Shown here piece by piece: positions 3,712-51,333 of a DNA stretch of 64,000 bases. Below the pieces are notes generated by a model, which ran no database searches, was not told the origin of the DNA, and saw only the letters and a list, made by a program, of their open reading frames with translations. Source of the DNA: Porphyromonas sp. COT-290 OH3588 (GTDB lineage: Bacteria; Bacteroidota; Bacteroidia; Bacteroidales; Porphyromonadaceae); the NCBI RefSeq assembly GCF_000769075.1, contig NZ_JRFC01000003.1:62001-126000 (forward strand), in the 5' to 3' direction. A program made the position numbers and the translations under genes. Numbering within the stretch: the stretch's first letter is position 1; each line of letters opens with the position of its first letter.

Positions 3712-4131
3712 GGGCGAGATTTATATTTTAGCTCAAATTTCAGAATGTTGATGAGAGAAACGCTTTAGACTAGGGAGAAAAACGGCAGACCGCGTATTTG
3801 GCCCCTAGGAGGCTCTAGATTGTGTCCGACTTCGTTTTGGCACTCCTCTCCAGTCCAATGGAAATAACCACCTAGAACGACATATTTGCAAACGCCTAAT
3901 ATACAAACAAATAAAATATGTTTATAGTTGATTTTATGCCTTCGTGTCGCCCTTTTGAGGATTTCTACCCATCAATCTTCTCGGATTAGTGGGCACATTG
4001 GCGAGAATTAGCCCACTAATCCGAAAAAGTCTTCCCTTTAATTTCCCTATATCGTCGCCTTGATCTCCCAAAACCTCCCTACCGTCCGCCTAAATTTCAG
4101 CGTAATTTGTTTACACACTTTAACCAAAAAC
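3712..4131 (+). repeat. Dispersed intergenic element, copy A
   Basis: One of four diverged copies of an element of about 400 bp found in gene-free gaps (others near 15.4-15.8, 27.6-28.0 and 50.9-51.3 kb). Shared landmarks in order are a left block GGGCGAGATTTATATTTT (as in copy C), a block around TATTTGGCCCCTAGGAGGC starting at 3795, a block starting CCATCAATCTTCTCGGATTA at 3969, and a right end TTAACCAAAAA near 4120. The two middle blocks are 174 bp apart. Only this copy carries a perfect 14-bp inverted repeat (3981-3994 with 4011-4024). No conserved coding frame through the whole element. Confidence 0.7.
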
Positions 4132-4178
4132 TCGAAAAGTAGATTTCTCGAATCTTCGGGTTTTCAATGCTGCGTGCA

Positions 4179-14640: not shown

Positions 14641-14819
14641 CTTAAAAATTGCACAGACTAGCAGGCCTCGCACCCCCTAAACTTAGTGTGCAAATAGGCT
14701 ACTTGGGCAGGTATGCCAAAGATCTATTTAGAGATTACTCACCTATCCTCCCGATGACTAAGTAACGGAACAGAGAGGCCAATGCATATCACACCAAACA
14801 TCTAGGGGAGGGACGAAAA

Positions 14820-14875
14820 AAGCCTTAGAGCTGATCCCCTCTTGGTTTCCCACAAGCGAATCAAGCCTAAGGCTT
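14820..14875 (-). terminator. Intrinsic terminator downstream of the riboswitch
   Basis: AAGCCTTAG at 14820-14828 pairs with 14867-14875, with inner helices, and is followed on the minus strand by six T residues. It precedes the sov promoter and would separate the riboswitch transcript from sov. Confidence 0.75.
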
Positions 14876-15003
14876 CCTTTCACTAAATTTTAACGTAGCT
14901 TGGCGAGCCACGCCCATCGTTGATCATGGGTGATGGGGATCCCGCGGGGATTAATTTCAGTCGCCCTCAGGGGCGTACTGCAGCTTTCCTCGAAGCCTTT
15001 AAT

Positions 15004-15152
15004 AGCTTTGCAGGTCTTCTGACTCACAATCTCGCCTCGGTCTACCTTCCCAGTAGCACAGAACTACCAGTGGTATCGACTCGACCAAAGGCTTGACGAT
15101 CGTACACAGCAGCGGGACTGTCCGAGATTCGCACTCGATTCCCTTTTAAGCT
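15004..15152 (-). promoter_or_regulatory. Cobalamin (B12) riboswitch
   Basis: Read on the minus strand, the conserved core of the cobalamin riboswitch appears in order: AAAAGGGAA, GTGCGAATC, GGACAGTCCCGCTGCTGT, a CCACTGG segment, CTGGGAAGG, then GAGTCAGAAGACCTGC (the B12 box). A short closing helix AGCTT/AAGCT joins 15152-15148 with 15008-15004. These elements bind adenosyl- or methylcobalamin and usually repress B12 transport or synthesis genes; in Bacteroidota typically btuB-like receptors. Here no such gene follows. The two cobalamin-synthesis genes of the window lie 20 kb away on the other strand. Confidence 0.9.
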
Positions 15153-15406
15153 CCAGCCCCCACATCAATAGACGCCAAGGCAAGGAACACAAAGCCGACG
15201 GCAAAGGTAAGCATTTTATCTATCTATCACAAAACTAGCAGATAGAATATGTTATCCTAGCTAGAGGTCTATACGACTAACCTAGGACTTGGCAATAGCC
15301 TTAATGTGCAGCGCAGCAAGACGGAAGAGGGAGAAGCAGAAGCCACCTATCCATGCCTCTCGTCTAAGGGCATCAAGGCGGTGTACAGTGTATGCTCATT
15401 CGTCTA

Positions 15407-50931: not shown

Positions 50932-51333
50932 GGGCGAGATTTATATTTTCACTCACTTTTCAGATTGTTGATGGGACAACCTCAAGCTCTCCTAGACTCA
51001 GAGAGCAAACTGCATATTTACCCCCTAGGAGGCGCTACACGAGGCGCTGATAGATTTAGGCTGACAGACTCCATCGGCAAAGAGATCGCTCAACCAAGAG
51101 AGTCCTCACAAAGCACTAGACAACAACACCTTAATCCAGATCTCATAAAACGAAGGCCCCTATACGCCCTATTCATCGGGAGTTTCGTCCCATCAATCTT
51201 GGCGAATCGGTGGACACATCGCTCTAGCTTAGTCCTACAGTCCAAGAAAATCTTCCCAGCAATCTATCGACCTATACGAGGCGACCTCTCTCAAATCACC
51301 ATTAATCCATTTGCATTTCTTAACACAAAAGAT
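50932..51333 (+). repeat. Dispersed intergenic element, copy C
   Basis: Begins with GGGCGAGATTTATATTTT, as in copy A, then CATATTTACCCCCTAGGAGG (TATTT at 51015), CCATCAATCTTGGCGAATCG at 51190 (spacing 175 bp), and a right end CTTAACACAAAAG near 51319-51332. The open frame through it on the plus strand (50860-51354) is in a different frame from those in the other copies and is not taken as a gene. The tRNA promoter starts 100 bp later. Confidence 0.66.

Follow-up and report, generated by a model that had tools for sequence, protein, structure and literature searches.

Comparative analysis of a 64,000-nucleotide stretch of the Porphyromonas sp. COT-290 OH3588 genome (contig NZ_JRFC01000003.1, positions 62,001 to 126,000; the window) suggests that the cobalamin riboswitch on its minus strand most probably belongs to a trans-encoded antisense RNA that senses B12 and holds mutA back under B12 scarcity. 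The mutA gene encodes the small subunit of the B12-dependent methylmalonyl-CoA mutase. The riboswitch locus appears to be an independent RNA gene and not a leader, and sequence comparison indicates that its RNA belongs to a conserved family found across Porphyromonas and in a second family of Bacteroidales. The identification of mutA as the predicted target is well supported by complementarity between the tail of the RNA and the start of the gene. Both the RNA family and the tail-mutA match go beyond the single-sequence view of a preliminary description of this DNA.

Promoter, aptamer and terminator

The aptamer occupies positions 15204-14992 of the minus strand, where Rfam cmscan returned a full-length RF00174 match spanning all 189 model positions (1-189) with 83.8 bits against a gathering score of 31.5 (E 3.6e-19); the preliminary description had judged the B12 riboswitch core intact, and the match bears this out. 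It had also noted a -7-like box ahead of the riboswitch. The putative promoter (15202..15234, minus strand) indeed combines a -7 type box, TACCTTTG at 15209-15202, with a -33 type TTTTG 20 nt 5' of the box, the Bacteroidales-type consensus being TTTG-N19/20-TAnnTTTG. The promoter stretch is kept in the sister genome G018, and a TAnnTTTG box lies 5' of every firm relative whose upstream sequence is available (G009 is cut off). The intrinsic terminator (14816..14875, minus strand) is a long hairpin, AAGCCTTAG...CTAAGGCTTTTTT, followed by TTTTTT. A hairpin with six T had been placed about 130 nt beyond the aptamer; hairpin and T-run were recovered, and the distance had to be corrected to about 117 nt. 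This hairpin (14875-14816) is absent from the output of a generic terminator scan, which takes loops of 3-8 nt; the stem here has internal loops. From promoter and terminator we infer a minus-strand transcript of about 380 nt that runs from the P1 start to the terminator T-run (14816..15196). The whole RNA folds better than 100 of 100 shuffles (z -3.2).

No sense ORF of at least 100 aa begins between the unit and sov, and sov has its own promoter box (TATCTTTG at 14640-14633). Two further early claims, that no gene follows the riboswitch and that sov has its own promoter, therefore hold, the latter at motif level. The neighbours 5' of the unit on the same strand encode an MFS transporter and a TonB receptor. 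At motif level the locus has the marks of a stand-alone small RNA gene, namely its own promoter, an intrinsic terminator and no conserved ORF. A coding function was considered and rejected because the small ORFs are short and lie at unrelated places.

The unit shares its aptamer class with the RF00174 riboswitches that accompany BtuB and BtuG, but it leads neither gene. The 2.29-Mb genome (G000) contains four cobalamin riboswitches, three of them further to the window copy. The one on contig C17 lies ahead of genes for a BtuG-like protein (DUF5074) and a TonB receptor, and the one on C6 (L174:8817-11906) leads a 4-hydroxybutyryl-CoA dehydratase-like operon, with a NifU-like protein and a CoA-transferase. 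On C4 (75954-77470; L173:5955-7471), a second riboswitch with a TAATTTTG box is followed by no ORF of at least 100 aa for about 1.3 kb. This stretch is highly similar in G018 (C114), a related one is present in G019 (C41), and the locus is possibly a second stand-alone riboswitch RNA.

Structure of the tail

The aptamer ends in a P13/L13 hairpin (14983..14996, minus strand; GCUU-CGAGGA-AAGC) that is also present in the relatives. By eye, its loop CGAGGA is complementary, with one bulged A, to the L5 loop UCCCG (within 15110-15120); an L5-L13 kissing loop is an expected element of cobalamin riboswitches. RNA folding predicts a structured tail of three minus-strand hairpins (14913..14980), designated H2 (14958-14980), H3 (14939-14951) and H4 (14913-14937). 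Tail hairpins occur at corresponding places in the relatives, but their sequence differs. The next hairpin, H5 (14894..14912, minus strand; CGUGGCU-CGCCA-AGCUACG), carries a loop GCC opposite the AUGGC at which mutA starts, although the fit is loose in this copy. A candidate antisense seed, UUUAGUGAA (14879..14887, minus strand), lies between H5 and the terminator and is complementary to UUCACUAAA of the genome's own mutA.

Searched against Rfam, the window unit matched with its aptamer alone; the tail returned plant/animal microRNA-like and similar matches only, far below their gathering scores. Weak CRISPR-repeat matches (E 0.11 to 0.23, below gathering) in the tails of G013 and G011 (L016:1425-1463 and L030:1426-1464) are probably due to chance. 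Two candidate long-range pairings were rejected. Most members of the second structural group show a J-to-H4-loop pseudoknot (UCUGCG with CGCAGA), but single sequences do not beat shuffles; an AAGGCUU-AAGCCUU antiterminator is present only in G000 and G018. Neither an antiterminator nor a B12-dependent exposure of the seed was found to be conserved among the relatives.

Conservation of the unit in Porphyromonas

G018, the closest relative (its Sov is 93% identical in the N-terminal part), carries the unit at 91% identity over window positions 14817-15249, on another contig and before an ICMT-like methyltransferase; both G000 and G018 are draft assemblies. Neither flank of the G018 unit matches the window, and the sov region is alike only up to 14657. 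Despite the different loci, the region after the aptamer is nearly identical in the two genomes. In G019, a homologous aptamer, tail and terminator lie before an M20 peptidase. Elsewhere in the window, 3717-4169 and 50937-51253 resemble sequence 5' of the G018 unit (L035:2086-2537; 69% for the first) and are possibly a dispersed repeat.

Cobalamin riboswitches were found in 23 of 26 Porphyromonas genomes (85 matches in all); G003, G007 and G020, in which none was found, were left out of the counts. A class pattern composed of the aptamer end and the P13 loop is present in exactly one copy each in 17 of 38 family genomes, all of the window's genus, and is absent from 12 sister-genus genomes. 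Together with G019, which was recognised by profile, firm copies are present in 18 of the 26 Porphyromonas genomes. Five more genomes, of asaccharolytica type, have a related aptamer with no sense gene of at least 100 aa behind it and probably carry the RNA, which would give 23 of 26 in all; this group has no clear terminator, and its best mutA run is the low-complexity CAACACACAC. Each of the 18 firm copies finishes in a terminator-like hairpin, the ends having been assigned by eye. Fifteen have an RNA of about 390-450 nt; the other three are longer, at about 650 nt in G015, 820 nt in G005 and 990 nt in G017. The RNAs of G005 and G017 (P. endodontalis group; L194 and L025; about 820-990 nt) have a long insert in the middle.

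The genes next to the unit are unrelated (sov, ICMT, M20 peptidase, HlyD, acyltransferase, GH20, phosphorylase, radical SAM, Asp-Al exchanger, MetG and M3 peptidase). The next gene is convergent to the unit in G012, G015 and G016, and the contig ends in G022. The preliminary description had recommended that related genomes be compared for a missing gene, and none of the common B12 genes lies behind the unit in any relative that carries it. With a terminator, no gene behind it and relatives whose next genes are unrelated or convergent, the unit lacks the direct control of a downstream gene that defines a cis-acting leader. In G009 (C2; L225:1-970), the orphan RNA is followed about 300 nt on by a second cobalamin riboswitch, which leads a TonB receptor.

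The RNA in a second Bacteroidales family

In an order-wide sample of 393 genomes, the class pattern gave two matches outside the genus, G252 and G129. The G252 match, one of four order-wide pattern matches, was not counted because it is an ordinary TonB-receptor leader, and G129 carries the orphan RNA. A 3'-module pattern, consisting of GCCATA and then GGGATGAGCTCC and containing no aptamer sequence, was found in 2 of the 393 genomes, both in the genus of G129, and at 13 loci in 12 of 59 genomes of the second family. A cobalamin aptamer lies directly upstream at each of these 13 loci (94-116 bits).

A covariance model, R1, was built from 11 second-family modules (17 pairs, 6 with changes on both sides) and was restricted to that family because a MAFFT cross-family alignment misaligned stems. 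R1 matched 16 loci in 16 of 25 genomes of genus g106, with an aptamer at 16 of 16; no module match was obtained in the other 9 genomes of g106, and none in 16 genomes of other families. G129, G468 and G479 are common to the 13-locus pattern set and the 16-locus R1 set. When R1 was run on the window and 84 riboswitch loci, five matches were obtained at E up to 10, weak singly (0.52 to 9), and all five are the 3' ends of orphan RNAs; R1 did not match the window copy. The terminator tip CGGGAUGAGCUCCG is present in 11 of 11 second-family modules. G427 has two RNA copies with the same 3' module (C5:3515082 and 3517326; L262 and L269), 2.2 kb apart and far from mutA.

Complementarity to the start of mutA

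The B12-dependent mutase is present in 24 of 26 Porphyromonas genomes; G003 and G007 have neither the mutase nor a cobalamin riboswitch. The mutA leaders mirror the RNA segment between H5 and the terminator. A perfect run of 8-14 nt links this segment to positions -27 to +15 of the genome's own mutA in 17 of 18 firm Porphyromonas RNAs (in G015 the longest run with its own mutA is 7 nt), and all 16 second-family RNAs tested have a run of 10-14 nt over the mutA start codon. Excluded from the pairing test were G457 and G484, whose MutA match lacks the N-terminus; G431, in which the RNA is present with no MutA match, was left out of the counts. For group I (5 genomes) the search covered 1,230 nt, a longer stretch than in the others. 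A riboswitch-controlled small RNA, perhaps antisense, had been proposed from the sequence of the window, with a search for complementarity to B12-linked mRNAs as one check; the mutA start answers that check, and the conserved unit with its co-varying mutA match supports the proposal.

The longest run was reached in fewer than 5% of 300 shuffled leaders for most RNAs, a test that left out G449, G468 and G479. The exceptions are G013 (0.057), G009 (0.067), G438 (0.07), G452 (0.063), G129 (0.107), G011 (0.16) and G015 (0.82), and further exceptions are G488 (0.063) and G494 (0.083), with G481 and G491 at 0.05. The runs of G011 and G129 do not beat shuffles.

RNA and mutA co-vary between clades. 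The RNA of G012 has UUUGCCAUAAUAAUUUAGUGAA and its mutA has UUCACUAAAUU and AUUAUGGCAAA. In G010 and G022, GTGATTAGAA is matched with TTCTAATCAC and GUGAUUAGAA with UUCUAAUCAC; in G004, TTAGTGGATT with AATCCACTAA and UUAGUGGAUU with AAUCCACUAA; in G005, both TTTGTTTTGTTGCC and UUUGUUUUGUUGCC with GGCAACAAAACAAA; and in G014, UAAUUUAGUGU with ACACUAAAUUA. The gingivalis-type genomes G006 and G008 have UUCUUUUGCCA with UGGCAAAAGAA and GUAUUGUGA with UCACAAUAC. Across 9 clades with one representative each, cognate RNA-mutA duplexes were more stable than permuted ones (permutation p 0.0012 with G019 standing for clade A and 0.0017 with the window's own genome).

Short duplex cores were also ranked against AT-matched leaders drawn from the 665 other leaders in the loci examined. 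The genome's own mutA came first in 8 of the 24 genomes ranked (G019, G012, G010, G006, G008, G312, G434 and G449) and second in G002, G022 and G009; the ranking left out G462, G468 and G479. Poor ranks were obtained in G018 (85 of 346), G014 (38 of 337) and G017 (32 of 269), and duplex energies over long windows did not discriminate targets. When the tail was folded by itself, the seed of 16 of 17 RNAs was unpaired more often than tail positions were on average. The RNA thus displays the co-varying target complementarity expected of a trans-encoded base-pairing RNA, weakly so in the window's own copy.

In that copy, the seed UUUAGUGAA (14887-14879) pairs UUCACUAAA at -19 to -11 of its own mutA in a perfect 9-nt run, a length reached in 2.7% of 300 shuffled leaders, and is mostly unpaired in the fold. 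The mutA ATG lies at G000:C12:16290, on another contig than the RNA, which is therefore not a cis-antisense RNA encoded opposite its target. Judged by the whole duplex, mutA comes 65th among 346 AT-matched leaders and 247th among all 666; the duplex is unremarkable because the H5 loop has drifted, leaving only GCCA to face AUGGC, and mutA would accordingly not stand out as a target from this genome alone. A search of all of G000 for the two-part target CACTAAAN{5,20}ATGGCAA gave mutA as the single match; because mutA served as the template for the pattern, this indicates rarity and is not proof. G012 has two matches, one at mutA and the other being the reverse complement of the RNA itself.

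In 13 second-family genomes the RNA and mutA share a contig, and the two lie within 36 kb of each other in 12. Eleven of these have the RNA downstream of mutA on the same strand at 4.3-19 kb, and one has it upstream at 36 kb; in the thirteenth genome it is 590 kb away on the other strand. The order in G491 is mutA, mutB, one 284-aa gene and the RNA. No RNA-mutAB linkage was found in Porphyromonas.

Proposed mechanism and alternative explanations

We propose that the unit's own promoter would yield an RNA of about 380 nt that begins with a cobalamin aptamer, continues into a structured tail and closes with an intrinsic terminator. The loop of the last tail hairpin and the stretch from that hairpin to the terminator would together pair in trans with the mutA start and block mutA translation; translational repression is predicted because the duplex would include the start codon or sit immediately 5' of it. 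Without B12 the RNA would be active and a useless mutase would not be made, and B12 in the aptamer would refold, destabilise or shorten the RNA and release mutA. Sequence shows the aptamer, the conserved stand-alone unit and a complementarity to mutA that changes in step between clades; we infer that the RNA is transcribed and represses, which way B12 acts on it and how aptamer and seed are coupled. It may be speculated that the L13 loop could kiss L5 or meet the terminator arm. In the related bacterium Xylanibacter ruminicola, mutA and mutB mRNA and protein increase with B12 (log2 fold change 1.3-1.7), through a mechanism that the authors of this 2024 study call unknown (PMC11575231). The proposed direction, in which the B12-free RNA represses and B12 relieves, would fit these data as well as the logic of EutX. 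More broadly, it is likely, if somewhat less so than the action on mutA itself, that in this RNA-gene family, shared by Porphyromonadaceae and a second family of Bacteroidales, a trans-acting antisense domain has been joined to a cobalamin aptamer. The usual B12-OFF riboswitch would thereby become a B12-ON control of the mutase, with other copies switching off B12 uptake and B12-free pathway genes.

The main target of a stand-alone regulatory RNA might instead lie elsewhere, in another mRNA or an RNA-binding protein as with EutX and EutV, and the mutA match be secondary. The tail is conserved outside the mutA segment as well (L13 in most copies, the CGGGAUGAGCUCCG tip in 11 of 11), and the window's own mutA duplex is not exceptional, but same-site mutA complementarity in two families, co-variation and linkage to mutAB make this unlikely. 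We consider equally unlikely an opposite sign for the same RNA and target, whereby the RNA would be active at high B12 and limit the mutase, or would stimulate mutA translation. The coupling of aptamer to seed could accommodate such a scheme, but pairing over the start codon is normally repressive and the Xylanibacter response is an increase of mutA and mutB mRNA and protein with B12 (PMC11575231).

Transcription attenuation, in which B12 would set read-through into the downstream gene, sov in the window, appears highly improbable. In the window, AAGGCUU beside P13 is complementary to AAGCCUU in the 5' arm of the terminator, but this 7-nt match (p 0.07 and 0.12 against shuffles in G000 and G018) is not kept in other clades, the downstream genes are unrelated and sometimes convergent, and the sov promoter motif is kept in G018 with the unit elsewhere, so that control of sov by read-through, an early suggestion, fails as a general explanation. 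We give almost no credence to a relic that has lost btuB or a similar gene, also suggested earlier, which would suit the lack of a gene after the riboswitch but not a post-aptamer region that two families conserve and that is near-identical in G000 and G018 although its loci differ, nor the absence of such a gene from every relative.

Relation to known systems and implications

Riboswitch-controlled non-coding RNAs have been described from a few Gram-positive bacteria. The Listeria RNA of Mellin 2013 is reportedly named AspocR and is said to be cis-antisense to its target. In Listeria monocytogenes, a cobalamin riboswitch controls an antisense RNA, and the B12-dependent pathway is maximal only with B12, as summarised in PMC11575231. 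The antisense RNA proposed here would resemble that system in that a cobalamin riboswitch governs an antisense RNA for a B12-dependent pathway. It differs in being encoded away from its predicted target, in another phylum and with another target, and in its predicted pairing in trans, which is short, imperfect and directed at a co-varying site at the start codon. EutX/Rli55 of Enterococcus faecalis and Listeria joins a cobalamin aptamer to an effector part at any genome location (PMC5821096). Our RNA is likewise a non-coding RNA joining such an aptamer to an effector part; EutX, however, sequesters the protein EutV through a dual hairpin, whereas the effector part here appears antisense to an mRNA, and there is no early ligand-stabilised terminator (by eye, no T-run follows P13 in the window). 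SreA and SreB are SAM riboswitch RNAs that act in trans on prfA and are terminated leader by-products of ordinary riboswitch genes. They are riboswitch-derived RNAs that base-pair in trans, as is predicted for our RNA, which differs in coming from a dedicated gene with no gene behind it.

This RNA was not found described in the open-access literature searched on cobalamin riboswitches, Bacteroides, Porphyromonas and the mutase. A Porphyromonas cobalamin riboswitch transcript upstream of a hypothetical protein is raised in periodontitis in a metatranscriptome study (PMC7160235). A riboswitch-controlled non-coding RNA is of a known kind; a dedicated, trans-pairing RNA conserved in Bacteroidota with co-varying targets would, judged from its sequence, be new, and it would be the first riboswitch-controlled non-coding RNA in Bacteroidota within that literature. 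The targets of regulatory RNAs are rarely predictable, and here RNA-mRNA co-variation names the target base by base.

If true, the proposed action on mutA could explain how B12 raises mutA expression in Bacteroidota without a riboswitch near mutA, and it makes the Xylanibacter mutase question (PMC11575231) testable. It also suggests how the mutase could be tuned to B12 in some gut and mouth bacteria without a protein regulator. These bacteria have propionate as a main product, and methylmalonyl-CoA mutase sits at the branch leading to it. With mutA under the RNA and the 4-hydroxybutyryl-CoA dehydratase-like operon under the riboswitch on C6, B12 may choose between the propionate and the butyrate route.
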